38,526 bases of DNA from Gammaproteobacteria bacterium (lineage in GTDB: Bacteria > Pseudomonadota > Gammaproteobacteria > DSM-19610), in NCBI GenBank assembly GCA_011374975.1, contig DRNU01000069.1, positions 1 through 38,526 on the forward strand. Reading direction: 5' to 3'. The position numbers and the translations under genes were made by a program. Shown one piece after another: positions 6,049-28,639 of this stretch; position 1 is the first letter of the stretch, and each line of letters opens with the position of its first letter. The notes below the pieces were generated by a model. The model did not search any database. It saw only the letters and a list, made by a program, of their open reading frames with translations, and was not told where the DNA came from.

Positions 6049-7959
6049 TTACGCCGGCTCCACCAGCATGCGGCCACGCATTTCCATGTGCAGCGCATGA
6101 CAGAACCACTGGCAGTAATACCAGTGCACGCCGGGGCGGTCCGCCGTGAAGGTCACCGAGGAGGTGGCTTGCGGCCCGATTTCCATGGCGATGCCGTAGT
6201 TGGCCAGCGTGAAGCCGTGCGTCAGGTCATCGATCTGGTCATTGTTGCTGACGTAGACGGTAACCTCGTCACCCTGTTTCACCGTGAACTTCTCCAGGCT
6301 GAAGCTGGGCGCGATCGACCAGATGTAGACGCGTACCTTGTTGCCGTCCCGGATCACCTTGCTTTCCGTGTACAGGGTTACGCCGTCCTTTTTGGCCTGT
6401 GCGGTTGCATCGGCCCACATCGGATCGTCTTTCTTCCACACGGAACGCGGGTTGACAATATCGGTGCGCACAATGATGCAGTCGTGCGGTTCGGCAAAGG
6501 TCGGACCGTCATGTACGATGGCCATCTTCTTGCCGGAAATGTCGATCAACTGGTCGTTCTCCGGTTTCAGCGGACCCACGTTGATGAAACGGTCCTTGGA
6601 GAACTTGTTGAGCGACACCAGCCACTTGCCATCGGCCTCTTTGGTTTCACCCATGGAGGTATGGTTATGGCCCGGTTGGTAGTGCACGTCGATCTTCTGG
6701 ATGATCGGGTCCACCTTCTTGCCGCTGTAGGCATCGACCGCTTTCTGGATGTTCCATTTCACGGCCTGGCTGTCGAGGAACAGGGTGGTAAAGGCGTTGC
6801 CCTTGCCGTCGAAGGCCGTATGCAGCGGCCCCAGGCCCAGTTCCGGCTCGGCGGCCACGACATCGCGCGGCTTGATCTTGTCGTTGAAGAGGTCAGGGAA
6901 GCGGCGCACGTCCAGGACAGTAACGGTCGGTGACAGCTTGCCGTTGATGACGACGTAGTGACCGTCCGGTGCAGTGTTGCAGCCGTGCGGGCTGTTGGAC
7001 ACGGGGACGTAGCGGGTATATTTCGAACCCTTGCGGCCGTCGATTACCGGCACGCCGTTGATCTTCTTGAAGTCGCCGTTCTTCACCGCGGCCTCGATAC
7101 GCTTGATATCGAAGATCACCACCCAGTCCTGCTCGTTGGCCGTCATCTCGGCCAGGTTGACGCCTTCCTCGCTGTTGTAGCAGGTCGAGAAGGCATACAG
7201 GCCCTGGTAGTCGGCGTCACAGTTGTCCAGGTTGCCGTCCACCATGACCTGCCAGGCGACTTCCATGGAGTCACCATCGACCGCGGTGAAGATGGCGTGG
7301 TATTTTTCCGGTTCATCGAGAATGCTGCCGTCGTTCGGGATCGGCACCCGGTGTTCGCCATTGGCGAAGACATAACCGGTGCGCGGGTACTTCTGCGGGC
7401 GCAGGCCATGAATGTCCGAGGCATTCGGGATTTCGATGATCTTGTCGCACTTCATGACATCGCAGCGTATGCGTGCGACACGCGTGTTGGCCTTGTCGTT
7501 CATGAACAGGTAACGGCCGTCATAGGTACCGTCGGTAAATGACATGTGCGGGTGGTGCAGGTCACCGTTCAACCACACGCCGCCCCGGCTTTCCAGGAAC
7601 TTTTTGGTGTCCGGCAGCAGTCCTTCGGTCAGAATTTTGCGGCTTTCGTTGGTTTCGCCCCAACCCGTGGCACTGTCACGGTTGAAAACCGGCACACGCA
7701 TCAGTTCACGCATGGAGGGCACGCCCATAATGCGCAGTTCGCCGGCCTGGCCACTACTCCAGAAACCGTAGTAGTCGTCCAGGTCGCCGGGGGCAACAGT
7801 GGCATCGCCGCCCGAGGCCTGTGCTGCGTCGGAATACAGCATGGAACCACCGGTAAGCCCGGCTACAGTACTTGCCCCGGCCAGTGCCGCCAGTTTGGCA
7901 GAACCACCCAGAAGCTCCCTGCGGGTAATACCCGACTTCTTGTCATCAGCTTTTGACAT
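6049..7959 (-). CDS. nosZ: Nitrous-oxide reductase NosZ (clade I, Tat-exported)
   Basis: 636 residues; reduces N2O to N2 in the periplasm. A Tat signal (ITRRELLGG near 11-19, followed by an Ala-rich segment) places it in clade I. The CuA site is complete near the C-terminus: C616, W618, C620, H624 and M627 in [12 protein letters not shown]. Histidine clusters for CuZ are present ([33 protein letters not shown]). Length agrees with the usual 630-640. GAGGAGA lies 7-8 bases before the ATG, the best ribosome site in the operon. It follows nosR after a 76-base gap containing a hairpin. Intact, with no missing ligand seen. Confidence 0.98.
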
Positions 7960-8035: not shown

Positions 8036-10345
8036 CTAGGCGGGGCTTTCTGAATCATCTCCAGCGGCCCTTCCGGCCCCTGTATCTATTGTTGTCTGTT
8101 TTTTGATTTCTTCCACTTTAAGGGCGACGCCTGATTTTCCGCCCTTCGACAGGTTGGCCTGGCGTTCGCGCTTGAGGCGTTTCTGGATCAGCACCGGGCA
8201 GGCGTGTTCATCCGAGTACACCACCTGGCAGTGCAGGCAGTACAGGCATTCGTTGACGTTGATATTGCCTTCCGGGTGGATGGCCTGGACCATGCACTCG
8301 TTGGCACAGCGCTGGCAGGGTGAGCCGCATTCCTTGTAGCGCTTGAGCCATTCGAACATGCGCATCCTGCCGGGGATCGCCAGTGCCGCACCGAGCGGGC
8401 ACAGGTAGCGACAATAGAAGCGTTCGATAAACAGGCCGGGCACCAGCACGGCGACGGCGAACAGCACAAACGGCCAGTCGCGCACGAATTTCAGGATAAT
8501 CGCGGTCTTGAACGGTTCGACCTCGGCGAGGCGTTCGGCGACGCCCAGGGAATGCAGGGAAAAGCCGAACAGCACCAGGAAAATCAGGTACTTCACCGGC
8601 CACAGGCGCTCGTGCAGGCCCCAGGGCAGGGGCAGCTGGGGGATTTTGACCAGCTTGGCGAGACGGTTGAGCAGTTCCTGCAAGGCGCCGAACGGGCACA
8701 GCCAGCCGCAATAGGCGCCGCGCCCCCAGAACAGCAGTGCCACTGCCACCGAACCCCACAGCAGGAAGACCAGCGGTTCCATGAGGAAGTAGCTCCAGTC
8801 GAAGCCGCTGATGAGGGCATTGAAGACGGCAAGGATGTTTACCACGGACAGTTGTGCATTCGCGTACCAGCCGATGCCGAACAGCGTGAATATCAGGAAA
8901 CCGACACGGATTCGGTCGGTCAGTCGCGGGTGTTTCACCAGCCAGTCCTGGAAGAAAAAGATCAGCGACAGCACGCCAAGCGCCATCAGCAGGACGATGA
9001 CCTCGGGTACTTTGACCACCCACATTTTCATCCACAGGGGGGCGTCCGGTGCATCGGCGTCAAACCAGCCCAGCAAGCCCTGTTGTGGGGGCACCTCGGG
9101 TTCGATGAAGGACAGGTATTTTTCCGGCGGGCTGTAGGACAGGTCAAACGTCAGGAAGGCCTTTTTGGTTGCGCCGACGGCACGTCCTACCAGCAGTTCC
9201 AGTTTCCAGGGCTGCGCCGGGTCAAAGCCCTGGTCGGGGGGGACCAGGAACAGGTCGACATCCTTGAGGTCAGGGGCGCCCTCGGCTGCAATATGACGCA
9301 GCCGCTTGTGCTGGAAGTCATGAAAACGGATCGAGGCATCACCCTGGGCGAGCTGGAAGCGGTCAAAAATACCGCCGCGCACATACCCCGAGCCCTTGAA
9401 GGAATAGCGGCCGCTGCCGGCCAGCAGGATGGCCTGCTGGCCGGGTTCCAGGCGTTGTGTCAGGTTCCGGTACTCTGCTTCACCCAGCAGACTGCGGCCG
9501 ATAGCGGGGATAGAGACCACCGCAGCGTACAGTTCGATAAACGACTCATCCGGGGCGCCTTGCTCGGGGCGTTCGGCTGCGAGCGGATCCCCCGAGGCTT
9601 CAAAAGCGGCGTTGACCTGTTCCAGGGTCAGTGCCAGTTGCCGCACCGAGCCGTCGGCCAGCAGTGTCGACCAGTCCTCGGTTTCAGCGGCCTCGGGATT
9701 GATTACAGCCCGGGGACCTGTTTTGGGGGGTTCCGGCTCCAGGCCGCCAAGACGCTGGTTGCGCGCCACTTTGATGGCGCTGCGCAGAATGGTGTCGTCC
9801 ATCACCATGACCGTGACGGTGGCACCGGTGACCACATCGACCTTTTGTTCCCCGATCTCGCCGCGTACCAGTGCACCGATGTCCAGGTTGTTATAGCCAT
9901 CCAGTACGGCGACGATGCGCTTTTCCGGGATACCGATGAGGACAATCGGCTCATGGTGCTCGACCAGCATGACCTTGCGGATGACACCCTTGAGGTCGAT
10001 GGCGACCAGCTGGTGGATGGGTTTCCCGGAATAGCCGGTGGTATTGGCGTAGTCGCTGGTGAGGAACACGTAGCCGATTTTCTCGCCGGCACTGAAGGCC
10101 GGCGCCACCGGCGGGTCGCCTTCCGGGTCGGCGATACGGTCCGCACCGGGAAAGACTTCCTGCGGGCCGATGTCGGTCAGAAAACGCGGCAGGTCGGCAG
10201 CAGCGGCGAAGCTGCCGGCCAGCAGCTGCATCAGCAGCACCAGCGTAAACAACATAAAGCCCACAGCAACGCCGTGCCCTCGCGCTCCCGCTGCACGACA
10301 GCCAGGACGCAGCCCTCCGGCACCACCAAGCTCTGTTCTATTCAC
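8036..10345 (-). CDS. nosR: NosR membrane flavo-iron-sulphur protein
   Basis: About 769 residues. A signal segment near 24-48 is followed by a periplasmic FMN-binding domain with the flavinylation motif TGATVT (173-178, flavin expected on T178). Several membrane helices follow, with two C-x3-CP motifs (CGWLCP, CRYLCP). A C-terminal cytoplasmic ferredoxin-like part carries CGSPCQRCANEC and CLYCLHC. NosR supplies electrons to NosZ and is needed for nos expression. The start taken is GTG at 10345 with a poor ribosome site; an internal ATG at 10255 would still leave a signal segment and cannot be excluded. First gene of the operon, downstream of an FNR/DNR box. No nosX/apbE for flavin loading is seen in this window. 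Confidence 0.96.
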   Translation of the reverse strand: MNRTELGGAGGLRPGCRAAGARGHGVAVGFMLFTLVLLMQLLAGSFAAAADLPRFLTDIGPQEVFPGADRIADPEGDPPVAPAFSAGEKIGYVFLTSDYANTTGYSGKPIHQLVAIDLKGVIRKVMLVEHHEPIVLIGIPEKRIVAVLDGYNNLDIGALVRGEIGEQKVDVVTGATVTVMVMDDTILRSAIKVARNQRLGGLEPEPPKTGPRAVINPEAAETEDWSTLLADGSVRQLALTLEQVNAAFEASGDPLAAERPEQGAPDESFIELYAAVVSIPAIGRSLLGEAEYRNLTQRLEPGQQAILLAGSGRYSFKGSGYVRGGIFDRFQLAQGDASIRFHDFQHKRLRHIAAEGAPDLKDVDLFLVPPDQGFDPAQPWKLELLVGRAVGATKKAFLTFDLSYSPPEKYLSFIEPEVPPQQGLLGWFDADAPDAPLWMKMWVVKVPEVIVLLMALGVLSLIFFFQDWLVKHPRLTDRIRVGFLIFTLFGIGWYANAQLSVVNILAVFNALISGFDWSYFLMEPLVFLLWGSVAVALLFWGRGAYCGWLCPFGALQELLNRLAKLVKIPQLPLPWGLHERLWPVKYLIFLVLFGFSLHSLGVAERLAEVEPFKTAIILKFVRDWPFVLFAVAVLVPGLFIERFYCRYLCPLGAALAIPGRMRMFEWLKRYKECGSPCQRCANECMVQAIHPEGNINVNECLYCLHCQVVYSDEHACPVLIQKRLKRERQANLSKGGKSGVALKVEEIKKQTTIDTGAGRAAGDDSESPA

Positions 10346-10383
10346 CTGAATTTTTTAAGAGTATCATCCAAAATTAGTGCGCC

Positions 10384-10389
10384 AGTATA
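10384..10389 (-). promoter_or_regulatory. -10 element of the nosR promoter
   Basis: TATACT on the minus strand, centred about 33 bases downstream of the FNR/DNR box centre. This is the spacing of a class II FNR-dependent promoter (box at -41.5) and predicts a start near 10378 with a leader of about 33 bases. Confidence 0.65.
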
Positions 10390-10412
10390 GCGAATCCCCA
10401 GCCGGGTTCTAC

Positions 10413-11467: not shown

Positions 11468-11572
11468 TCAGTTGCAGGTGTGGTGATGCCTGCACCAGTG
11501 CAGTACATAGAGGAAAGCCACCATCGCCGTAACCATGACCAGGCCGGCTACTGTCAGTCCGTCGATTATCAT
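11468..11572 (-). CDS. Small 34-residue single-pass membrane peptide
   Basis: ATG at 11572 is preceded by AAGGAGA with an ideal six-base gap, and the frame ends in TGA at 11470-11468. The product is one hydrophobic helix (from about LTVAGLV at 6 to VLHW at 26) with a short tail rich in His and Cys (HWCRHHHTCN). Upstream lies a promoter-like box shared with the operon at 15584. The gene is divergent from the response-regulator gene and separate from the rubrerythrin-like gene. I do not recognise a family. The tail could bind metal, or the peptide could modulate the adjacent sensor kinase; both are guesses. Translation is likely from the ribosome site but unproven. Confidence 0.6.
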   Translation of the reverse strand: MIIDGLTVAGLVMVTAMVAFLYVLHWCRHHHTCN

Positions 11573-11620
11573 GACCTGTCTCCTTAACCCGGAAGGTTGT
11601 CCGTTTTTTCAGTGTTTAAC

Positions 11621-11652
11621 AGTTTACCCGCCGGTTGTTTCAGCGGGATTTC
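11621..11652 (-). promoter_or_regulatory. Promoter with shared box (copy 1), for the small peptide gene
   Basis: On the minus strand: GAAATCCCGCTGAAACA (11652-11636), nine bases, then TAAACT (11626-11621) as -10. GAAAT and GAAAC are direct half-sites 11 bases apart, as in OmpR-family operators overlapping -35. The same layout recurs at 15659-15690. The box lies 64 bases upstream of the peptide ATG and about 80 bases upstream of the response-regulator start on the other strand. Confidence 0.6.
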
Positions 11653-11654
11653 GG

Positions 11655-11685
11655 CTGTAACGCAATTTGTAACAAATTGTTACAG
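11655..11685. promoter_or_regulatory. TGTAAC repeat/palindrome upstream of the two-component genes
   Basis: Outer arms CTGTAAC (11655-11661) and GTTACAG (11679-11685), with a further TGTAAC at 11668-11673, 12 bases after the first. It adjoins the shared box and a related CTGTTACAG lies at 15705-15713 beside the second copy of that box. Candidate operator for the neighbouring response regulator. Confidence 0.5.
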
Positions 11686-11731
11686 TTGGCCGTGTGACGA
11701 AAACAGGCTGCGTCTGCTAGGCTTGTGCCGC

Positions 11732-12463
11732 ATGGACACCGACCCGATCAGTATTCTTGTTGTCGACGATGACCCGGAGCTGCGCGAATTGCTGGGGCAA
11801 TATCTGTCGGAGCAGGGATATGCGGTAAATGGCGTGGAAGATGCCACCGGCATGGACAGTTTCCTGGCGGAGGCTGTCCCGGACCTGGTTATTCTCGACC
11901 TGATGCTGCCGGGCGAGGACGGCCTGAGTATTGCCAAACGCCTGCGCGGCAGCCACGACATCCCGATTATCATGCTTTCCGCACGCGGCGAGGAAGTGGA
12001 CCGCATTGTCGGCCTGGAAGTCGGCGCCGATGACTATCTGCCGAAGCCTTTCAACCCGCGCGAGCTGCTTGCCCGTATCCGGGCAGTCTTGCGGCGGCCT
12101 GCCCTGGCCGCTGACCCTGACTCCCCGGGTGAACAGGTCTTCGAATTCGGGCCGTTCCAGTTAAACCCGGCCAGTTGCGAGCTGACCCGGGAGGGGGAAA
12201 AAGTGCCCCTGACCAGTGGTGAATTTGCGTTGCTGAACATTCTTGTCCAGCACCCGAACCGGGTTCTCAGCCGCGACCGGCTGATCGACATACTGAAGGG
12301 TTTCGAACGCTCGCCCTATGACCGCAGTATCGATGTGCGTATTACACGCCTGCGCCGCAAGATCGAGACAGACCCGGCGGCCCCTGTCTATATCCAGACA
12401 GTCTGGGGTGAGGGCTACCGTTTCACGCCCGGAGAGAAAGCACAGTCTGCGCACGGCTCATGA
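11732..12463 (+). CDS. OmpR-family response regulator
   Basis: 243 residues. The receiver domain (about 5-120) has the acidic pair VVDDD, the phosphorylated Asp in LVILDLMLPGEDG, the switch residue in IIMLSARGEE and the Lys in DDYLPKPFNPREL. The C-terminal winged-helix domain (about 140-235) ends with RSIDVRITRLRRKIE and VWGEGYRF, typical of OmpR. I chose ATG 11732 because MDTDPISILVVDDDPELREL aligns with OmpR starts; 45 extra in-frame upstream codons look like intergenic sequence. It overlaps the kinase gene by four bases (ATGA). Its likely target sites are the TGTAAC repeats and the GAAA(T/C) box just upstream, suggesting autoregulation. Confidence 0.93.
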   Translation: MDTDPISILVVDDDPELRELLGQYLSEQGYAVNGVEDATGMDSFLAEAVPDLVILDLMLPGEDGLSIAKRLRGSHDIPIIMLSARGEEVDRIVGLEVGADDYLPKPFNPRELLARIRAVLRRPALAADPDSPGEQVFEFGPFQLNPASCELTREGEKVPLTSGEFALLNILVQHPNRVLSRDRLIDILKGFERSPYDRSIDVRITRLRRKIETDPAAPVYIQTVWGEGYRFTPGEKAQSAHGS

Positions 12464-13773
12464 ATAACCCCCGCACGCTGTTCGCCAGGACCGGGATCAC
12501 GCTGGCCGTTGCGTTCGCCGTATTCCTGCTGTTCTCCGTGGCGGTGGTGGTCAACTTTATCCTGGTTCCGGTGGCCAGGCAGGGCGCTGAAGATCTTGCC
12601 GCCCTGATGATGCTGTCCGCCCAGACCTGGATCGAACTTCCCGCGGCAACACGCCCCATTTTTGAGCGCGACCTGCTTAAAGAGTATGAACTGAAAGTCG
12701 GCATAGCGGAGGGTGAGCTGCCGCCGAGAATAAACCCCTTGCCTTACCTGCGCTTTCTTGAAAATGAACTGGAAAGTCGCGCGGGCAAGCCTGTGACCAT
12801 TACCACGGAAGAACATGCCGGCACCTGGTACTGCGCGGATACCCACACGGGCGGGCGGCTGATCCGGGTCTGTTTTCCGCACTCGCGCCTCGGCGCCAGC
12901 CCGCCAATAGCGGCAGTGCTGGTTATTATCGCGGGCGCCATTGCCATCCTGCTCACATCATTGTTACTGGTGCGGCGCCTTATCGACCCGCTGGCGCGCC
13001 TGTCTGCAGCCACGTCACAGATCAAGCGCGGAGAGGTTCCTGCCCCCTTGCCGGAGAGCGGTCCCAGGGAACTGGTGGAACTCACCCGTAACTTCAACAC
13101 CATGGGGCGTGAACTGGGCGAACTGCTGGAAAACCGGACCACGCTGCTGGCCGGGATTTCACACGACCTGCGTACCCCCCTGACGCGCATGCGCCTGGCG
13201 CTGGAACTGCTCGAACCCGGCACGGAAAACAAGCCCTTGCTGGAGCGGATGCAACGTAATATGGAAGATATGGATCGCCTTATCAGTTATACCCTGGAGC
13301 TGGCGCGCGGCCTGGAATCGCGGGAGATGGAGGAGGTGGACCTGCGTGAGTTCGTCGACGGTGTCGTCGGCGAGTACCGACCCGCAGAAAAGACGATCGA
13401 CTGGGTGCCGGGGGACTGTTGCTACTGCACCATTGATCCCCTGGCGCTGCGCCGCATTCTGACCAACCTGATCGATAATGCCATCCGCTATGGCAGCCCT
13501 GAATCCGTATCGGTGCAGTGTCACTGCGACCCTGAGGCGGCGGTTATTGAAGTTCTGGATCGTGGAGAGGGAATCCCTGCGGGTGAAATCGAAGCCGTCT
13601 TCCGTCCTTTTCACCGCCTGGAATCATCGCGCAGCCGACGTACCGGTGGTAGCGGGCTGGGGCTGTCCATTGCCCGTCAGCTCGCCGATGCCCGTGGCTG
13701 GACTGTTGATCTTTCCCCGCGCGACGGCGGAGGCACCATCGCGCGGGTCCGGATCCCTCGTCAGCCTGCATAA
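12460..13773 (+). CDS. EnvZ-like sensor histidine kinase
   Basis: 437 residues. TM1 is about 13-36; a periplasmic sensor region follows (about 40-148); TM2 is about 150-171; then HAMP, and a dimerisation domain with the phosphoacceptor His235 in AGISHDLRTPLTRMRLALEL. The ATPase part shows the N box LIDNAIRYG, a DRGEGIP G1 box and GGSGLGLSIARQLA. The order matches EnvZ. The sensor region contains two cysteines (C125, C138) within WYCADTHTGGRLIRVCFPH, next to several His. That could point to metal or redox sensing, but it is inference. It pairs with the overlapping response-regulator gene, and ends two bases from the convergent beta-propeller gene. Confidence 0.93.
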   Translation: MNNPRTLFARTGITLAVAFAVFLLFSVAVVVNFILVPVARQGAEDLAALMMLSAQTWIELPAATRPIFERDLLKEYELKVGIAEGELPPRINPLPYLRFLENELESRAGKPVTITTEEHAGTWYCADTHTGGRLIRVCFPHSRLGASPPIAAVLVIIAGAIAILLTSLLLVRRLIDPLARLSAATSQIKRGEVPAPLPESGPRELVELTRNFNTMGRELGELLENRTTLLAGISHDLRTPLTRMRLALELLEPGTENKPLLERMQRNMEDMDRLISYTLELARGLESREMEEVDLREFVDGVVGEYRPAEKTIDWVPGDCCYCTIDPLALRRILTNLIDNAIRYGSPESVSVQCHCDPEAAVIEVLDRGEGIPAGEIEAVFRPFHRLESSRSRRTGGSGLGLSIARQLADARGWTVDLSPRDGGGTIARVRIPRQPA

Positions 13774-13775
13774 AC

Positions 13776-15140
13776 TTACATATTCACGCCGTCGCCATTC
13801 CAGACAAAGCTGCCCATCAGCACGTTGCCACCCAGGTAGAGGCGATCCGATACTTCCAGGGTATCCAGGTCGATACGAAAGAACACACCATCGTGGCTCG
13901 CTGCGCTGTAGAAATATTTCATATCCAGGCTGACACCGGAGGTATGCGCCTGTGACTTGTAGTCGGGCGATGCCGAGTCGGCAACCTCGATATTTTTCAG
14001 CCATTGATGTGTCGTGGTATCGATGACCGTCATATAGGTCGCATTGTGATTGGTGACAATGGCCAGGCCATGCATGGGGGCAAAGGTGGTATGCCCGGAG
14101 CCGGGGCCGGTGTCGACCATGGCCTCTACCGTCATCGTATCCTTGTTGACGACGAACAGGTGCCCCTCGGCCGAACCGATATAGATGTGCACGCCATCCG
14201 GGTGAAAATCAGCATGGTGTGCCCCCATCACGGCGGGATCCAGCAACTGGGGGGCATAGTCGGCCAGGATAACGCTGCCGGTCCTGACCAGGCGCTTGCC
14301 ACGTACTTCGAAACGCAGGATAGCGGGCGACAGGCCCTTATCCCGGTTACCCTCGGCAACGGCATAGAATACGAGCTCGTCACCGGCCTCCATGCTGTAG
14401 GCAGGCGGCTGGAACAGGTGGTGAACCGAAGTCGGTGCAGTCAGTGTCGACAACAGTTCGCCGCGCCGGCTCCACAGCTGGATCTGGCGTGCCGCACGAT
14501 CGAGCATGAAGAAACGCCGGTCATCCAGCCACAGGGGGTGTCCGGTTGCCAGTGAACCGCCAAAATCGGCGGGCTCACTGAGTTCGTCGTAGCCGACTAC
14601 TTTCATTACCCGGTCCCGGTCCACGCGGATGATGCTGGTCATGGGTTTGTCTCCGCCCGAGACCAGGGTCAGGCCGGTAGTGGCGTTGTAATTGGTCGAG
14701 CGGGGTTTGTGTTGCAGGGGGATCAGGCCCGCATTTTCGAAAGTCCTGTTGTCGACAATGGTCAGGGATTCGGTTTTGCGCGTCAGGGCGTATGCTTTGG
14801 TAACGCCTTCCTGGTCGATCCCGTAGGGACCGTCACCCGTGCCTTCAACAGTTGTGAGCAGCTGCATGGCATCCACATCGACAATAAATACCCGGTTGGA
14901 ATCCCAGTCGCCGTAGTAGGCAAGGTTATCCACGTTGTAGATATTGTCACTGGTATACCCATCCTGGTTCACGTAGCCCTGCTGCCTGTAGTGGTGCTTG
15001 ACGCTGTCATGCCGGGGATTGTTTCCGGCTGCCAGCGCGGACACTGAAACCAGTGTGCCGCCCAGCAGTACAAGGCAGGCGGCCAGCGCGGAAGGCCGGA
15101 AAGGGAAGAGGGCGCTGTTTATTTCATCTCGGGTTTGCAT
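13776..15140 (-). CDS. Secreted beta-propeller protein
   Basis: 454 residues from ATG 15140, chosen for AGGAG six bases upstream; an alternative start 20 codons earlier adds a Gln-rich stretch with no ribosome site. A signal peptide ends near SVSALAAG. The rest consists of repeating beta-strand units with VFIVDVDAMQLL, IYIGSAEGHLFVVNKDTMTVEA and YMTVIDTTTHQWLKNIEVAD blades, like YVTN/NirF-type propellers. Histidine clusters (GAHHADFHPDG, SGHTTFAPMHG, VTNHNATY) could hold metal or a cofactor. No heme motif. It is downstream of the Gly/Gln-rich gene (69-base gap) and probably in its operon, under the shared box at 15659-15690. Function unknown; a periplasmic binding or scaffold role is inferred. 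Confidence 0.75.
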   Translation of the reverse strand: MQTRDEINSALFPFRPSALAACLVLLGGTLVSVSALAAGNNPRHDSVKHHYRQQGYVNQDGYTSDNIYNVDNLAYYGDWDSNRVFIVDVDAMQLLTTVEGTGDGPYGIDQEGVTKAYALTRKTESLTIVDNRTFENAGLIPLQHKPRSTNYNATTGLTLVSGGDKPMTSIIRVDRDRVMKVVGYDELSEPADFGGSLATGHPLWLDDRRFFMLDRAARQIQLWSRRGELLSTLTAPTSVHHLFQPPAYSMEAGDELVFYAVAEGNRDKGLSPAILRFEVRGKRLVRTGSVILADYAPQLLDPAVMGAHHADFHPDGVHIYIGSAEGHLFVVNKDTMTVEAMVDTGPGSGHTTFAPMHGLAIVTNHNATYMTVIDTTTHQWLKNIEVADSASPDYKSQAHTSGVSLDMKYFYSAASHDGVFFRIDLDTLEVSDRLYLGGNVLMGSFVWNGDGVNM

Positions 15141-15209
15141 TGAAAACTCCTGTGGTGATTGCTGTGTTCCATGACTGTTCTGTTCGGGTTGATACTGCAC
15201 GGGTGGCGT

Positions 15210-15584
15210 TTAGCGACCACGGCCACCGCCACCGCCCTGTCCATAGCGATGACCCTGTCCGCCACCGCCGCCCTGTCCATAGCGATTACCCTGGCCACCG
15301 CTGTTACCCTGCCCGTAGCGATTGCCCTGCCCATAGTTGCCCTGTCCGCTGTTGCGGTTCTGCTCGCGCAGCTGGTTACGTTCCTCGGCACTCAGTGATT
15401 GATGGCGCGATTGCATTTCCGAGCGGAATGCATCACGATCCTCCGGTGACATATCACGCGCCTGTGAGCGCATCTGCATCATTTCTTCATTGGTGTAAGC
15501 GGAATAATCGGCCGCCATTGCGCCACTTGCCAGGCCCAGCGTGATAACCAGACCTGCACCATACCTGCGTAATTTATGTTTCAT
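15210..15584 (-). CDS. Secreted small protein with Gly/Gln-rich repeat tail
   Basis: 124 residues. Signal peptide 1-24 (ends GAMAADY). Residues 27-72 form a charged helical region (NEEMMQMRSQARDMSPEDRD and SLSAEERNQLREQN) reminiscent of Spy/LTxxQ-like periplasmic helices. From about 78 onward the tail is low complexity: repeated QGNRYGQG/GGQG units. GGAGA lies eight bases before ATG 15584. The tail is probably disordered. It is the first gene before the beta-propeller and is divergent from the cytochrome. The promoter-like box at 15659-15690 matches that of the small peptide gene. I cannot name a function; envelope-stress or metal binding are possible. Confidence 0.7.
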   Translation of the reverse strand: MKHKLRRYGAGLVITLGLASGAMAADYSAYTNEEMMQMRSQARDMSPEDRDAFRSEMQSRHQSLSAEERNQLREQNRNSGQGNYGQGNRYGQGNSGGQGNRYGQGGGGGQGHRYGQGGGGGRGR

Positions 15585-15658
15585 CGTTAGTCTCCATTGA
15601 ATTGATCGGGCACCTGGCGTGTGTGCCCCGGTGAGTGCACGCGCCAGCTGTGACAGGC

Positions 15659-15690
15659 AGGTTAGGGGGCGACTGTTTCACGGGGATTTC
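15659..15690 (-). promoter_or_regulatory. Promoter with shared box (copy 2), for the Gly/Gln-rich operon
   Basis: On the minus strand: GAAATCCCCGTGAAACA (15690-15674), nine bases, then TAACCT (15664-15659). It matches the promoter at 11621-11652 at 15 of 17 box positions with identical spacing to the -10. CTGTAACAG lies upstream at 15713-15705. It is 90 bases before the ATG of the Gly/Gln-rich gene. Confidence 0.6.
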
Positions 15691-15740
15691 CGTGCTGTGT
15701 AAAACTGTTACAGGGTGTTTCAGGGCCGGACGGAAACATC

Positions 15741-15851: not shown

Positions 15852-16325
15852 ATGTGCAGATTTTGCTGGATACTTGTAGCGGCATTACTGGTGTCGACCG
15901 GCGCACTGGTCGGAAAATTTATTATCGTTGGCGAGACGCAGCCTGCTGCCGACGGGCGAACGGCTATCGTGCTGGAACCGGCTGAACGGGACATGATCCT
16001 TACCGAGATGCGGGCCTTCCTGGGCAGTGTGCAGGGTGTTTTGCTGTCTGCCAACGGCGATGACATGAAAACACTGGTTATCGCTGCACGGAAGTCAGGC
16101 ATGCCTCCCCCGGACCAGATTCCGGCCGCACTGGTGGGCAAGCTGCCGCTGGCATTCAAGAAGCTGGGTTTTGATACCCACAAGCGCTTTGACCAGCTGG
16201 CGCTGGATGCCGAGCAGTTGGGTGATAAAGAGCATGCCCTTGAGCAACTCGCGGAGCTGATGAACAACTGTATTGCCTGTCATGAGCAGTATCGCCTGGT
16301 AGGCAAGGCGGCGGCCCAAAAGTAG
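15852..16325 (+). CDS. Monoheme c-type cytochrome (cytochrome c'-like)
   Basis: 157 residues with an N-terminal membrane/signal segment (about 5-25). The middle is helical, and one heme site, CIACHEQYR, lies near the C-terminus. C-terminal CxxCH after a helical bundle is the cytochrome c'/c-556 arrangement; such proteins bind NO or transfer electrons in the periplasm. The start at 15852 has GGGAG 11 bases upstream, a little far. It is divergent from the Gly/Gln-rich gene and convergent with the diheme peroxidase, with a shared terminator between. The retained N-terminal MCRFCW cysteines are unusual for a signal peptide. Electron partner not known. Confidence 0.75.
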   Translation: MCRFCWILVAALLVSTGALVGKFIIVGETQPAADGRTAIVLEPAERDMILTEMRAFLGSVQGVLLSANGDDMKTLVIAARKSGMPPPDQIPAALVGKLPLAFKKLGFDTHKRFDQLALDAEQLGDKEHALEQLAELMNNCIACHEQYRLVGKAAAQK

Positions 16326-16383: not shown

Positions 16384-17526
16384 TTACATATATCCGTCTG
16401 TCAGCGTTTTCATGAAGTTGACCAGGTCAGTTATCTCCTGGGGTGTCAGTCCCAGCCCCACGTCGGTAAACGGGTTGAGTTCCGCGGCAATGTTGTCATT
16501 GACTTCGGCCGTGTAGAAAGAATCCGCCACGATGATGTCGTAGTGCGTAATGACCTGCTCAAGCGTGTCGTAGGCTCCGTTGTGCATGTAGGGCGCGGTC
16601 AATTCGATATTCCGCAGGGTGGGAACCTTGAATTTTCCGCGTTCGGAGGCCACGTCGGCAGGGCTGATATTGGTATTGTCGGCCAGGCCGCCATCCCGGT
16701 ATGCATTGTTACTCACATAGGCCGGGTTCATGGTGTTCACGGGCGTACCGATATTAAAATACTTGAAGTTGGTGAATAGCGACGGCCCGCCGGTCGGGTT
16801 GTCCACGACATGACAGTTGGCGCATTTTGCCTTGTTGCCCTTGAATACAGTCAGCCCGTTCGCTTCCGAGGCCGTCATGGTGTATTGCCCGATTAACGAG
16901 GCATCATACTTTGAAGTAAACTGGTTGACCTCGGATGAGGTTTCAAAGGCAGCCAGTGCCTGGGCAATAAAGTCATAGGCAGTAGCCACATCATCCAGCG
17001 CGGTAGAGCCGAATGCACTCAGGAACGCATTTGCATAACTTGCGTTGCGGACCTTGTTCACCACTTCCGCTGCATCGGCATTATTCATTTCGACCGGGTT
17101 CAGGAAAGGATCCTTCGCCTGCGCTGCCAGGGTGCTGCGGCGCCCGTCGAGAAATTGCCCGCCTTCATATTTTGAGCCGTCTTCGGATGTCTGGGCCGTG
17201 CTTGTCAGGCGGAACGGGGGAGAGAAGGAGGCATAGGCCGCCGTTGGTGCATTCCGGTTGCCAAATGCACCGCCGACCGAGCCTTCTGAAACCGGTGCCA
17301 GGGCGTTCACACCGGGATCGGCAAAACCTGTTGCCGGGTCATGACAACTGGCACAGGATTGATTACTGTTGCTGGAAAGATTGGTGTCGAAAAATATGGC
17401 GCGACCGACACTTGCAATCGATACCGTGCCGGCCGGTGCGGTGCTTGACGATCCTCCGCCACCACCGCCACAGCCGCCCAGAAAAATAATGGCCAGTGAT
17501 AAAACCCTGATTCTGTTACCTCGCAT
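16384..17526 (-). CDS. Diheme cytochrome c peroxidase / MauG-family lipoprotein
   Basis: 380 residues. The signal ends in a lipobox (FLGGC, Cys19) followed by a Gly/Ser linker, so it is lipid-anchored rather than free in the periplasm. Two heme sites, CASCH near 60 and CANCH near 235, and conserved segments (GRAIFFDTNLS, KVPTLRNIELTAPYMHNGAYDTLEQVI) mark the bacterial diheme peroxidase/MauG family, which reduce H2O2 or oxidise protein partners. Family length is usually 320-380. An FNR/DNR box 79 bases upstream indicates anaerobic induction, as for E. coli and Pseudomonas peroxidases. The physiological donor could be the neighbouring monoheme cytochrome. Confidence 0.88.
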   Translation of the reverse strand: MRGNRIRVLSLAIIFLGGCGGGGGGSSSTAPAGTVSIASVGRAIFFDTNLSSNSNQSCASCHDPATGFADPGVNALAPVSEGSVGGAFGNRNAPTAAYASFSPPFRLTSTAQTSEDGSKYEGGQFLDGRRSTLAAQAKDPFLNPVEMNNADAAEVVNKVRNASYANAFLSAFGSTALDDVATAYDFIAQALAAFETSSEVNQFTSKYDASLIGQYTMTASEANGLTVFKGNKAKCANCHVVDNPTGGPSLFTNFKYFNIGTPVNTMNPAYVSNNAYRDGGLADNTNISPADVASERGKFKVPTLRNIELTAPYMHNGAYDTLEQVITHYDIIVADSFYTAEVNDNIAAELNPFTDVGLGLTPQEITDLVNFMKTLTDGYM

Positions 17527-17715: not shown

Positions 17716-18069
17716 ATGCATACAGACCCGGAAATTTTCTTTCAGATGCTGGCGGACACGACAAGACTGCGCGTTTTGATGTTGTTACAGGGGCGCGGTG
17801 AACTCTGTGTCTGCGAGCTGACCCATGCCCTGTCACTGTCCCAGCCAAAGATCTCACGGCACCTCGGGCAGTTGCGCGAATCAGGCCTGGTCGAGGCGCG
17901 GCGCGCCGGTCGCTGGATGTATTACCGCATCCGGCCGGAGCTGCCGGCCTGGATGCAGACTGTTTTACACGCCACGTTTGACGGAGTGGCCGGGCTCTCG
18001 CCGTACCGGGAGAACGCCCTGTCTCTTGAACAGATGCCGAATCGACCCGGCGCCAGTTGCTGCGCCTGA
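17716..18069 (+). CDS. arsR: ArsR arsenite-responsive repressor
   Basis: 117 residues from ATG 17716 (MHTDPEIFFQMLADTTRLR); the 12 in-frame codons before it fall in the operator. A winged-helix fold spans about 10-90. The arsenite site ELCVCELTHAL contains the Cys-x-Cys pair of classical ArsR, next to the recognition helix (LSLSQPKISRHLGQLRESGLVEARRAGRWMYYRI). The C-terminus ends in another Cys pair (SCCA). It represses arsR-arsC-acr3 and releases DNA on As(III) binding. Seven bases separate it from arsC. Confidence 0.93.
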   Translation: MHTDPEIFFQMLADTTRLRVLMLLQGRGELCVCELTHALSLSQPKISRHLGQLRESGLVEARRAGRWMYYRIRPELPAWMQTVLHATFDGVAGLSPYRENALSLEQMPNRPGASCCA

Positions 18070-18076
18070 GCTGGTT

Positions 18077-18502
18077 GTGAATATCCTGTTTCTCTGTACC
18101 GGCAATGCCTGTCGCTCGCAAATGGCGGAGGGCTGGGCGCGTGCCCTGGCGGGCGACAGCGTGGTTATTCAATCAGCGGGCATCGAGGCGCATGGCAAGA
18201 ACCCGCGTGCTATTGCTGTTATGAAAGAAGCCGGTATTGATATTTCACAGCAGCAATCGACACGGGTCGACGACAGTATGCTGGAGGATGCGAATCTCGT
18301 GGTTACTGTGTGCGGTAACGCCGACGAGCATTGCCCGGTATTACCTGCCGGGACACACAGGGAGCACTGGCCACTCAGCGATCCGGCCAGGGCGGATGGC
18401 AGTGAGGAGCAGGTCATGCAGGTGTTTCGTGCCAGCCGGGACGATATCCGGCAGCGTGTCGAGGCTTTGCTGCAACGACTGGCAGGGGAAACACAGGCAT
18501 GA
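18077..18502 (+). CDS. arsC: Arsenate reductase (low-molecular-weight phosphatase type)
   Basis: 141 residues starting at GTG 18077. The P-loop C7-TGNAC-R13 and the Cys pair C79/C86 (VTVCGNADEHCP) match the three catalytic cysteines of the S. aureus pI258-type enzyme, offset by three. The conserved LSDPARADGSEEQ region is present. It reduces arsenate to arsenite in the cytoplasm using a Cys-Cys relay and thioredoxin. In-frame codons upstream belong to the arsR coding region and are not used. Its TGA overlaps the acr3 ATG. Confidence 0.93.
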   Translation: MNILFLCTGNACRSQMAEGWARALAGDSVVIQSAGIEAHGKNPRAIAVMKEAGIDISQQQSTRVDDSMLEDANLVVTVCGNADEHCPVLPAGTHREHWPLSDPARADGSEEQVMQVFRASRDDIRQRVEALLQRLAGETQA

Positions 18503-19554
18503 GTGCATCCATGGGTTTGTTTGAACGCTACCTCAGTATCTGGGTCCTGCTCTGTATAGCCACCGGTATTGCCCTGGGGCACTGGTTCCCGGGCGTCTTT
18601 CAGGCTATCGGGGCCATGGAAGCCGCGCACGTCAATCTTCCGGTGGCGGTCCTGGTCTGGCTGATGATTCTGCCGATGTTGCTCAAGATCGACTTCCATG
18701 CCCTGCATGAAGTACGCCGGCACTGGAAAGGGGTCGGTGTGACATTATTTGTGAACTGGGCGGTGAAGCCTTTTTCCATGGCGCTGCTCGGCTGGCTGTT
18801 TATCCGCGGCCTGTTTGCCGACTGGCTGCCGGCGGAACAGATCGACAGTTATATCGCCGGACTGATCCTGCTGGCTGCCGCGCCCTGCACGGCCATGGTG
18901 TTTGTCTGGAGCCACCTGTGCAACGGGCACCCCGGCTATACCCTGTCCCAGGTGGCGCTGAATGATGTGATCATGGTGTTTGCCTTCGCCCCCATTGTGG
19001 CCCTGTTACTGGGGATTTCGTCGCTGCATGTGCCCTGGGACACGCTGATGTTGTCGGTGGTGCTGTATATCGTGTTGCCGGTTGCCGTGGCCGCTGTCTG
19101 GCGGCGCCGGCTGCTGGCACATGCGCACGGGGTTGCAAGGCTGTCGCGCCTGTTACACCACCTGCAGCCGTTATCGTTGATTGCCTTGCTGACAACCCTG
19201 GTGTTGCTGTTCGGCTTCCAGGGCAAGGCGATTATCGACAAGCCGGTGATCATCCTGCTGCTGGCCGTGCCGATCCTGATACAGGTGTATTTCAATTCCG
19301 GTCTGGCCTACCTGCTGAGCCGGAAACTGGGCGTTGCCCACAGTGTGGCGGCACCGTCGGCGCTGATCGGTGCAAGTAATTTTTTCGAGCTGGCAGTGGC
19401 AACGGCGATCAGCCTCTACGGGCTGGAGTCCGGCGCGGCGCTGGCGACTGTGGTGGGTGTGCTGGTGGAGGTGCCGGTGATGCTGTCCGTGGTGCGTATC
19501 GTCAACCGCAGCCGTGGCTGGTATGAGCGCCCGCTCCATAACGGGTCCGGTTAG
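18499..19554 (+). CDS. acr3: Acr3 arsenite efflux carrier
   Basis: 351 residues with about ten hydrophobic helices. Family marks include APCTAMVFVWSHL (with the conserved Cys of Acr3), ALNDVIMVFAFAP and GASNFFELAVATAISLYG. It exports As(III)-type oxyanions across the inner membrane using the proton gradient. It is not the unrelated ArsB. ATG overlaps the arsC stop by four bases (ATGA). A strong terminator lies 41 bases after its stop, closing the ars operon. Confidence 0.94.
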   Translation: MSASMGLFERYLSIWVLLCIATGIALGHWFPGVFQAIGAMEAAHVNLPVAVLVWLMILPMLLKIDFHALHEVRRHWKGVGVTLFVNWAVKPFSMALLGWLFIRGLFADWLPAEQIDSYIAGLILLAAAPCTAMVFVWSHLCNGHPGYTLSQVALNDVIMVFAFAPIVALLLGISSLHVPWDTLMLSVVLYIVLPVAVAAVWRRRLLAHAHGVARLSRLLHHLQPLSLIALLTTLVLLFGFQGKAIIDKPVIILLLAVPILIQVYFNSGLAYLLSRKLGVAHSVAAPSALIGASNFFELAVATAISLYGLESGAALATVVGVLVEVPVMLSVVRIVNRSRGWYERPLHNGSG

Positions 19555-26515: not shown

Positions 26516-28639
26516 ATGGCCATTATTAAAATCACACCTTTCCAGCGGGTAGTCCTCAGCCTGGTGCTAGGCATCGTTTTCGGTGTCATCATCGGGGAGC
26601 CGGCAGGTAAACTGGATATTGTCGGCGACGCCTATATCCGCCTGCTGCAAATGACGGTGCTGCCCTATATCCTGTTTTCGCTGATTGGCGGGCTCGGACG
26701 GCTGGATATGGATATGGCCAGGCGTATCGGTGTTGCCGGGGCGGGGTTGATCCTGTTCCTGTGGGCGACCACCATGGTTGGCTTGCTGGCCATGCCGTTT
26801 GCCTTTCCCGACTGGACCTCGGCGTCCTTCTTCAGCAGCAGCCTGATTAGCCAGCCCGCCAGCTTCGATCCGCTTACGCTGTATATCCCGGCCAACCCGT
26901 TCCGCTCGCTCGCCAATACTACTGTGCCCGCCGTGGTGGTGTTCAGTATCGGCACCGGCGTCGCGCTGATCTCGGTCGCCAACAAGGACGGCCTGTTACT
27001 GATATTACAGAATGTCAGCGATGCCCTGATGCGCATTGCCTCCTTTGTTGCCAAACTTGCGCCGATCGGTATTTTTGCACTTTCCGCCGCTGCCGCCGGC
27101 ACGCTGGACATTCAGTCGCTGGCGCGCCTGCAGGTCTACCTGTGGGTCTACGCCGGCGCCTGGCTGGTGCTGACCTTTTTTACCCTGCCGATGTTTGTCG
27201 CCTGGGCGACACCCTTCAGTTACCGTGAGGTGATGAAGGATGCGCGCACTGCCATGGTGACGTCCTTTGCCGCGGGTACGGTGCTGGTGGTGCTGCCGAT
27301 GATTGTCGAACGCAGCAAGGCGTTACTGGCGAAACACGGTATGGATGACAGGGAAGCCTGCACCGCGGTCGATGTGCTGGTGCCGACGGCCTACAGTTTC
27401 CCCAGTGTCGGTACGCTGCTGGGTATCGGCTTTATCCTGTTTGCCGGCTGGTTCGTCGGCTCGCCGCTGGATATTGCGCAGTACCCCGGCTTTGTTGTGA
27501 CCGGTGCGGTTTCAGCCTTCGGCACCATGGCGGTTGCGCTGCCGTTCATGCTGGATTATTTCCACCTGCCCTCGGATATGTTCCAGCTCTACCTGCTGGG
27601 CAGTGTCATGACCGCACGCTTCGCGACGGTGCTGGCGACCATGCATGCCGTGGTTATCAGTCTGCTGGGTGCCAGTATGATGCTGGGCAAGGTCAGGAAA
27701 ATCGGCCTGCTCCAGGTGCTGTCGGCCACAGTAATGGTCATGACCTTGTTTATGTGGGGACTGGGCATACTTCTGACCAATGTCATTCCCTACAAATATA
27801 CCGGCTATGAATCGTTCGTCTCCATGCTGCCGATGGAACAGGTCACCCATGAGCGGGCTGTTGAAATGCCTGAAAAACTGTCCGGGGATCTGCTCGGGCA
27901 GCCGCGCCTGGCCGTAATCAAGGAACGGGGCACGCTGCGGGTTGGCTACCCGGCGGATGCCCTGCCGTTTGCATTCCGCGGCGAACAGGGGCACGTGGTG
28001 GGTTACGATATAGACCTGATGCGTGTGCTGGCCAGGAAGCTGGATGTCGGCCTGGACCTGGTGCGGGTGAAAAAGGCCCAGGCCGGGGCGGCCCTGAATG
28101 AGGGGCGCATCGATGTGTTTGTCGGTGCCCTGATCGTCACCACCCGGCGCGCCCAGGAGTGGAATTTCAGCCAGCCCTATCTGTATGAGCACATCGGCTT
28201 CGTGGTACAGGACTACCGCCGCACCGAATTCTCCAGCCTGGACAGAATACGGGCCACGCGGCAATTGCGTATCGGGGCCCTGCGTGCCCTGAATGACACC
28301 CTGTACGGGCCGCTTGTCCGCGAATACCTTGGCGATGATGTCGAAATTGTGCCGATCGATTCACCCAGGGACTATATGACCGGCAAGGTGGATGTCGATG
28401 CGATGGTGTATACCGCCGAATCAGGTTCGGCCTGGACACTGGTCTATCCCGACTATTCGGTCGTCGTCCCGCAGGGAATGTCGTCGAAGGTTGCGGTCGG
28501 ACTGGTGCTGCCGAACCGCCAGGCGGATTTCGAAAGTTTTATCAACCTGTGGCTTGAAGTCGAAGACACGGGCGGGTTGCTGGAGCGGCTGGAGAAATAC
28601 TGGATCTACGGCAATACGAAAAAGGGCGAGGGAAAATGA
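26516..28639 (+). CDS. Dicarboxylate/amino-acid symporter fused to a periplasmic binding-protein domain
   Basis: 707 residues. Residues 10-425 form a DAACS/SDF-type symporter: ITPFQRVVLSLVLGI, TVLPYILFSL, NPFRSLANTTVPAVVVFSIGTGVAL, SFAAGTVLVVLPMIVE. The NMDGT substrate motif of glutamate carriers is replaced by PTAYSFPSVGT (290-300). After the last helix (about 405-423), residues 463-697 are an extracytoplasmic solute-binding protein family 3 domain (GTLRVGYPADALPFAF, GYDIDLMRVLARKL, DVFVGALIVTTRRAQEWNFSQPY). The two halves are in one uninterrupted frame. A secondary transporter carrying its own binding domain is unusual. ATGA overlap with the amidohydrolase gene ties the two products together. 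Confidence 0.9.
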   Translation: MAIIKITPFQRVVLSLVLGIVFGVIIGEPAGKLDIVGDAYIRLLQMTVLPYILFSLIGGLGRLDMDMARRIGVAGAGLILFLWATTMVGLLAMPFAFPDWTSASFFSSSLISQPASFDPLTLYIPANPFRSLANTTVPAVVVFSIGTGVALISVANKDGLLLILQNVSDALMRIASFVAKLAPIGIFALSAAAAGTLDIQSLARLQVYLWVYAGAWLVLTFFTLPMFVAWATPFSYREVMKDARTAMVTSFAAGTVLVVLPMIVERSKALLAKHGMDDREACTAVDVLVPTAYSFPSVGTLLGIGFILFAGWFVGSPLDIAQYPGFVVTGAVSAFGTMAVALPFMLDYFHLPSDMFQLYLLGSVMTARFATVLATMHAVVISLLGASMMLGKVRKIGLLQVLSATVMVMTLFMWGLGILLTNVIPYKYTGYESFVSMLPMEQVTHERAVEMPEKLSGDLLGQPRLAVIKERGTLRVGYPADALPFAFRGEQGHVVGYDIDLMRVLARKLDVGLDLVRVKKAQAGAALNEGRIDVFVGALIVTTRRAQEWNFSQPYLYEHIGFVVQDYRRTEFSSLDRIRATRQLRIGALRALNDTLYGPLVREYLGDDVEIVPIDSPRDYMTGKVDVDAMVYTAESGSAWTLVYPDYSVVVPQGMSSKVAVGLVLPNRQADFESFINLWLEVEDTGGLLERLEKYWIYGNTKKGEGK

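Follow-up and report, generated by a model that had tools for sequence, protein, structure and literature searches.

We analysed a stretch of 38,526 nucleotides (hereafter, the window), which is contig 69 (DRNU01000069.1) of a draft gammaproteobacterial genome (GCA_011374975.1) of 3.3 Mb in 249 contigs. It encodes an OmpR-family response regulator and an EnvZ-like sensor kinase whose nearest named relatives are in metagenome assemblies labelled Gammaproteobacteria, Thiohalobacter and Thiogranum, among others. A gene for a small membrane peptide diverges from the regulator gene, while a pair of genes encoding a Gly/Gln-rich protein and a beta-propeller protein runs convergent to the regulator/kinase pair (Table 1). 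The original prediction, made from the sequence alone, had placed sensor, regulator, peptide, secreted repeat protein and propeller in one regulon governed by a shared promoter box, and the peptide gene of 34 codons that it had proposed was located. The cytochrome c'-like gene listed in the table also adjoins the Gly/Gln-rich gene in G006 (G, L and C numbers denote genomes, loci and contigs of our sets). The listed open reading frame of the propeller extends as far as a GTG at 15200. No Rfam family matched at gathering scores.

Table 1. Features of the regulator/kinase locus in the window
Feature	Position	Strand	Remarks
Peptide gene, single transmembrane segment, 34 residues, MIIDGLTVAGLVMVTAMVAFLYVLHWCRHHHTCN	11468-11572	-	AAGGAG ribosome site; relatives; dN/dS (ratio of nonsynonymous to synonymous substitution rates)
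Box 1	11621-11685	-	In front of the peptide gene; half-sites 11684-11678 and 11674-11668; GAAATC 11652-11647; TGAAACA 11642-11636; -10 TAAACT 11626-11621
OmpR-family response regulator	11732-12463	+	Receiver and winged helix
EnvZ-like sensor kinase	12460-13773	+	HAMP, HisKA, HATPase; AGISHDLRTPLTR around His235
Beta-propeller protein, secreted (signal peptide by eye)	13776-15140	-	ATG at 15140 behind AGGAG
Gly/Gln-rich protein, secreted (signal peptide by eye)	15210-15584	-	RYGQG repeats; MSPEDR-type N-terminal region
Box 2	15659-15723	-	First gene behind it is the Gly/Gln-rich gene; half-sites 15722-15716 and 15712-15706; GAAATC 15690-15685; TGAAACA 15680-15674; -10 TAACCT 15664-15659
Cytochrome c'-like neighbour, candidate regulon member	15852-16325	+	24.5 bits against a cut-off of 26.5

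The two minus-strand promoters have in common an ungapped layout of 65 bases, CTGWAACA-N3-TGWWACA-N15-GAAATCCC-NN-TGAAACA-N9-TAAMCT. This pattern, which we composed from the two copies themselves, is matched exactly by both boxes and by none of 100 dinucleotide shuffles at up to three mismatches. Exact copies of its 17-mer GAAATCCC-NN-TGAAACA stand at 11636-11652 (-) and 15674-15690 (-) and nowhere else in the window. At three mismatches the 17-mer is not rare (0.73 matches expected, 15 of 100 shuffles reaching two), but both real copies are exact. The composite thus described consists of a pair of upstream half-sites with a ten-base step, two more about eleven bases apart that straddle the -35 position, nine bases, and the -10 element; the step from the second half-site to the third is 22 bases. 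The original prediction had recognized the shared layout, which is real and was understated, and gave correctly both the nine-base spacer to TAAACT or TAACCT and the half-sites about 11 bases apart (from NGAAATC to TGAAACA). It went astray in claiming that the upstream element is offset by a helical turn between the copies (33 versus 23 bases), because it measured from CTGTAACA in both. In copy 1, CTGTAACA begins 33 bases ahead of GAAATC and TTGTTACA stands at 23 bases; in copy 2, CTGAAACA occupies the 33-base position and CTGTAACA, at 23 bases, is the second half-site. Alignment of the first and second half-sites rules out a true offset, and both promoters have the same geometry.

We searched for this element in genomes of the same family. 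Kinase orthologues with at least 37% identity are found in 11 of 20 genomes, two orthologues being truncated at contig ends. The exact half-site pair TGWAACANNNTGWWACA occurs at 15 places (17 rows of the search, two places being palindromic) in nine of these 11 genomes and in none of the nine genomes lacking an orthologue, and the reversed control gave one match, in G015. Eight of the 15 places are at the regulator or Gly/Gln-rich gene. Two that lie away from the kinase front paralogues of the peptide (G005:C116 and G007:934396, L187), and one in the window's own genome (C226) is followed by the start of a secreted-looking protein whose gene is cut by the contig end. Box 2 recurs with the Gly/Gln-rich gene in G006 and G012. 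Thirteen promoters, 12 from the family and one from L059, were excised by hand from the first half-site to the -10; they align without gaps until the last spacer, 11 of them measuring 65 bases and two 66.

The box is also found outside the family. A first matrix built from 10 family boxes was used to scan the region ahead of the regulator, up to 350 bases long, in 63 loci, i.e. 80 loci minus seven of the family (L056, L057, L058, L060, L061, L062, L075), two with less than 200 bases upstream, and eight without a located regulator beside the kinase. It scored above z = 4 in 34 of the 63, near-copies included. Each of the 34 beats all 60 of its own shuffles, and all are on the divergent strand. 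The box was found in 33 of the 38 loci whose kinase is at least 42% identical, and in one of the 25 below that value. A second matrix, to which six non-family boxes were added, was used on whole loci with a cut-off of 14 bits and revealed 56 sites in 50 of the 80 named loci. Thirty-three are divergent from the regulator, 17 lie just after the kinase gene on the same strand and two are ahead of the regulator operon; these 52 are at the regulator or kinase gene, places that we defined as expected after seeing the list of sites, and four are elsewhere. The reversed sequence (965 kb) gave a single score above 5, of 13.4, and none above 14. Boxes 1 and 2 score 64.9 and 69.6 with the wider matrix, which has them in its training set, and 53.7 and 60.0 when left out of the 10-box matrix.

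Two further analyses bear on the link between box and kinase. A 38-base pattern applied to DNA only, in 369 genomes of the class, retrieved six sites, against none for the reversed pattern. Two are in the window, three are directly upstream of an OmpR/EnvZ-like pair in genomes that carry three different family labels (G155, G172, G352), and one falls within a long coding frame. In a tree built from 66 kinases (out of 81 rows, after dropping those with fewer than 370 residues or a stop in the excised sequence), the three labels for the placement of the box need only two changes. We assigned these labels partly by eye, and counted as divergent L088 and L061 (where the spacing is off), L056 (with a truncated region upstream of the regulator and its box beyond the kinase) and L076, L087 and L123 (with boxes in both placements).

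The regulator belongs to the OmpR/PhoB class, with matches to PF00072 (102.3 bits) and PF00486 (89.2 bits) that are both over the cut-off. Its score of 308.5 bits against the OmpR equivalog NF007005 is under the cut-off of 331, and is the best for this model in its own genome (next, 194.6). Similarly, the kinase has 237.2 bits against the EnvZ equivalog NF007004, the best of 82 families, and under the cut-off of 415. Among solved structures (PDB), OmpR is the closest to the DNA-binding domain of the regulator. The regulator gene has its own -10-like TAGGCT at 11718-11723, which ends eight bases before the ATG and is kept in G012 and G017, and its messenger RNA may be leaderless.

Which genes lie behind the box? 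In the 34 loci retrieved with the first matrix, the nearest plausible gene encodes a small secreted protein in 24 and the peptide in seven (31 of 34), secretion signals being called with a crude hydrophobicity score and a ribosome-site pattern. None of these gene types is shown in L064 (contig end), L083 and L091. The recurrent products are Gly/Arg-rich [YF]GxG[YF]ExR proteins, Gln/Gly-rich proteins like that of the window, and the peptide; three [YF]GxG[YFL]E-type proteins tested against Pfam gave nothing over the cut-off. Other products are more sporadic. Second boxes front genes for di-haem peroxidases (CCP_MauG) at L123:7392 and L059:8658, and an HlyD-family gene in L087, with a near-identical gene behind the box of L113. 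The box of L121 is followed by an EF-hand protein gene, the operon of G007 includes a gene for a DUF2202 protein, and a FadL-family outer-membrane protein gene follows the box in G155. In the window, a MauG/MbnH-like di-haem gene at 16384-17526 has no box over the threshold. The Gly/Gln-rich protein itself is under the cut-offs of Metal_resist (PF13801, 21.5 bits against 29.2) and of DUF3106 (PF11304, 17.7 against 24.3), a model that the box-driven protein of L069 passes with 30.1 bits.

The place of the propeller is less constant. The protein had been described as His-rich, which is not striking (18 His in 454 residues). It is under the cut-offs of the YncE/PQQ-associated models TIGR03866 (33.8 against 287.3 bits) and NF052280 (20.2 against 400), and only the repeat model TIGR02276 is over it (34 against 27.85). 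At E ≤ 1e-20, seven of the 369 genomes encode it, counting that of the window. All three of box, propeller and kinase occur together in the window, L121/G149 and G290, the last found by a propeller-first search. We rejected the propeller as an obligatory part of the system: it is box-linked in only three of the seven genomes, and is absent at E ≤ 0.001 from G006, where the Gly/Gln-rich gene faces the kinase gene directly. The single regulon of the original prediction is supported by the recurrence of all three products (peptide, Gly/Gln-rich protein, propeller) behind boxes of other loci, less well for the propeller. The pairing of the propeller with a secreted protein can also exist without the promoter: in G155 (L220:4883-6660), a small Gln/Gly/Arg-rich secreted gene comes after the propeller gene, and there is no box. 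Divergent from the regulator in G010 is a gene (L048:12345-13361) for another kind of propeller, a member of the virginiamycin B lyase family (Vgb_lyase).

We then considered the peptide family, using 23 aligned peptides that we chose ourselves (L141, where no box was seen, and L088, a weak match, were excluded). M1, D4, T7 and G10 are invariant, and the box is ahead of the peptide or its operon in 16 of the 23. In the window, in G017 and G018, in six Thiohalocapsa loci and in one Chromatiaceae locus, the peptide gene follows the box and is transcribed away from the regulator. It is part of the divergent operon in G005, G007 and G009, and follows the kinase gene in L121. The dN/dS of nine pairs that we picked ranges from 0.13 to 0.64, with small counts in each and silent change near saturation in some; these values fit a translated, constrained peptide gene. 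By the positive-inside rule for membrane topology, the charged Cys/His tail would be cytoplasmic. The profile of the family matches 63 of the 369 genomes at E ≤ 0.1, and many of these matches are within longer frames and look like chance. By our profile searches, the family is in neither Pfam nor NCBIfam: the window peptide has no Pfam match at E ≤ 1, and its sole NCBIfam match at this threshold is CcoM (NF041600), with 11.7 bits against a cut-off of 40. In the PDB, the profile matches chain 5djq_N best (E = 0.01), with 26 residues aligned in register from Met1. The title of this record is putative uncharacterized protein; we take the chain to be CcoM. The T7 of our peptides is a V there. We rejected this resemblance as proof of identity, given the curated cut-off, the lack of any match of NF041600 over the window genome at E ≤ 1, and its below-cut-off matches in six of 14 control genomes.

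Some relatives of these loci deserve mention. G017 has two contigs with a regulator start (L044/L062 versus L137), and peptide and box are upstream only in C137; the other contig (C83) joins unrelated sequence, perhaps through an assembly fault. A second peptide of the family (MIFDAFTISGIIVVVVFLAATVALKHCCNGQ) is encoded in the window's own genome, on contig 233 (L176:1720-4376), near a Gln/Arg-rich secreted gene and without a box. L176 also holds two genes that resemble, by eye, the pair beside the propeller of G155 (L220).

We consider it very likely that this EnvZ/OmpR-type system activates, from a class-II-like promoter, genes for small envelope proteins, which here would be the peptide and the Gly/Gln-rich and propeller operon. 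The recurrence of the box beside OmpR/EnvZ-like pairs supports the original interpretation overall. The kinase would sense an envelope signal and phosphorylate the OmpR-like regulator, which would occupy the four half-sites as tandem dimers. It would then recruit sigma-70 polymerase to a promoter with no obvious -35 hexamer, by class-II activation of the kind modelled for PhoB, and the output of small envelope proteins would rise. Box 1 would drive the peptide gene; box 2 would drive the Gly/Gln-rich gene and presumably also the propeller gene. The corresponding products of relatives would include the Gly-rich [YF]GxG[YF]ExR, EF-hand and DUF2202 proteins, the di-haem peroxidases, parts of HlyD-family efflux systems or the FadL-family protein. 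That the adjacent regulator acts in the class-II manner is suggested by half-sites that fit OmpR sites, by a third and a fourth half-site that cover the -35 and leave nine bases to the -10, and by a DNA-binding domain that is nearest to OmpR. From the secreted products and the peroxidase and cytochrome neighbours, we infer a role in the response to envelope or redox stress. Our guess is that the peptide is a small accessory of a membrane complex, either a respiratory oxidase or the kinase itself.

Characterized systems can be compared with this scheme. OmpR sites are reported to be 20 base pairs long and made of two 10-base-pair sub-elements, e.g. TTTACATTTTGTAACACATA (PMC3050692). Compared with them by eye, TGTAACA-N3-TGTTACA and TGAAACA-N3-TGTAACA have the 10-base step and the GTAACA-like cores of an OmpR-type site. 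The boxes predicted for OmpR in Acidithiobacillus caldus include GTTACAACTTGTTACATAAG (PMC9861516). The EnvZ/OmpR systems of E. coli, Yersinia and Acidithiobacillus caldus resemble ours in domain order, gene order, a DNA-binding domain nearest to OmpR and tandem 10-base sub-elements with TGTAACA/TGAAACA half-sites. In contrast, the pair in the window is under both NCBIfam cut-offs and its targets would be adjacent small envelope genes behind a 65-base promoter; there is no porin among the neighbouring genes annotated here. Class-II promoters with a pho box, for which a structural model has a PhoB dimer and sigma sharing the -35 region (PMC3348028), also have tandem half-sites there, but our boxes have OmpR-like half-site sequences and a second, upstream pair.

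Several observations weigh against activation of these genes by the adjacent regulator, or limit the tests that favour it. The expectation that the box always lies near these genes is borne out by the 34 loci, by the 52 sites and by three of the four DNA-only sites outside the window, but "always" fails, as 29 of the 63 loci have no box upstream of the regulator. Thirty of the 80 named loci have no site above 14 bits, owing to one-base indels or cut contigs and, in some, to true absence. Counts are of loci with near-copies kept, and one box sequence is common to three Gallionella loci. The six boxes added to the second matrix came from matches of the first, and the 38-base pattern was derived from the matrix consensus, although its scan did not use the kinase. 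In the family, four of the 15 exact half-site pairs lack the rest of the box (G005:C34, G012:C99, G014:C76, G015:C14). Those of G014 and G015 are the sole pair in their genome, leaving a box-embedded pair in seven of 11 genomes, and no exact pair was found in G009 and G010, which have a kinase orthologue. Seven of the 23 peptide relatives have no box, and the propeller is away from box or kinase in four of its seven genomes (G155, G116, G362, G075; 6.6 to 11 kb around each). Eight loci with the box after the kinase gene, of K189A/Pseudomonadales type (L102, L104, L105, L107, L108, L110, L118, L129), have no clear small secreted gene behind it. Finally, the best PDB matches of the whole regulator are RegX3, MtrA and BaeR.

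The two boxes lie 4 kb apart in one window, and could in principle reflect chance or the copying of box 1 into box 2 by recombination. We give this almost no credence, since the half-sites match while the spacers between them vary freely, and box 2 accompanies the Gly/Gln-rich gene in G006 and G012 and the layout is found in other gene orders; chance is disfavoured by the shuffles, the non-family loci and the DNA-only scan. The boxes might instead belong to another OmpR-family regulator, their proximity to this one being incidental, as four additional proteins of the window genome match the OmpR model over nearly its full length. This is very improbable, because the placement of the box tracks the kinase tree and the exact half-site pair is missing from every family genome without a kinase orthologue.

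Two further proposals concern the peptide, and we find each of them rather doubtful. It could be a feedback modulator that is produced under the regulator's control and contacts its own kinase in the inner membrane, negatively, like MgrB on PhoQ, or positively, like MzrA on EnvZ. The recurrence of the peptide behind the box beside regulator or kinase in multiple loci favours this idea, and MgrB, of 47 residues (PMC2789325), and MzrA (PMC2727453) provide precedents of small membrane proteins tied to a two-component system. Our peptide has 34 residues. Boxless peptides in G004 and G011, where the kinase has no close orthologue, argue against the idea, as does the secreted protein that takes the position nearest to the box in 24 of 34 loci. 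Alternatively, the peptide would serve a haem-copper oxidase as a CcoM-like accessory, with the system tuning respiration. CcoM is reported to be a 36-residue subunit of the cbb3 oxidase of Pseudomonas stutzeri (PMC10433244), similar in length and with a single transmembrane segment. The peptides have M1, D4 and G10 in register with 5djq_N, their best PDB match, CcoM is the sole NCBIfam match, and there are cytochrome c'-like and di-haem peroxidase genes at the window locus and peroxidase genes in L123 and L059. The score far under the family cut-off, the empty NF041600 search of the window genome and the V in place of T7 speak against it. A broader idea, which we regard as possible but tentative, is that single-transmembrane peptides of about 29 to 50 residues (M..D..T..G) are a dedicated output of OmpR-type systems that acts back on that system or a respiratory complex and thereby links envelope sensing with membrane energetics in several proteobacterial lineages.

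Other genes of the window include NosZ, a nitrous-oxide reductase dependent on twin-arginine translocation (6049-7959, well over the cut-off), and an arsenate reductase gene adjoining one for ACR3 arsenite efflux (17825-19554). An open frame of 612 residues at 8552-10390 has no Pfam or NCBIfam match at E ≤ 0.01, and a single frame at 26516-28639 joins a dicarboxylate/amino-acid symporter-like part to an amino-acid binding-protein-like part.

A literature search, mostly of papers outside subscription, turned up no description of the promoter, the regulon or the peptide family. As an EnvZ/OmpR system, the pair belongs to a known kind; the new elements, within the searches made, are the composite promoter kept beside it, the local targets of this promoter and the peptide family. 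The box provides a regulon signature for an OmpR/EnvZ-type system in Gallionella, Sulfuricella, Thiohalocapsa and similar groups, and it draws attention to a family of small membrane peptides that gene finders may overlook.

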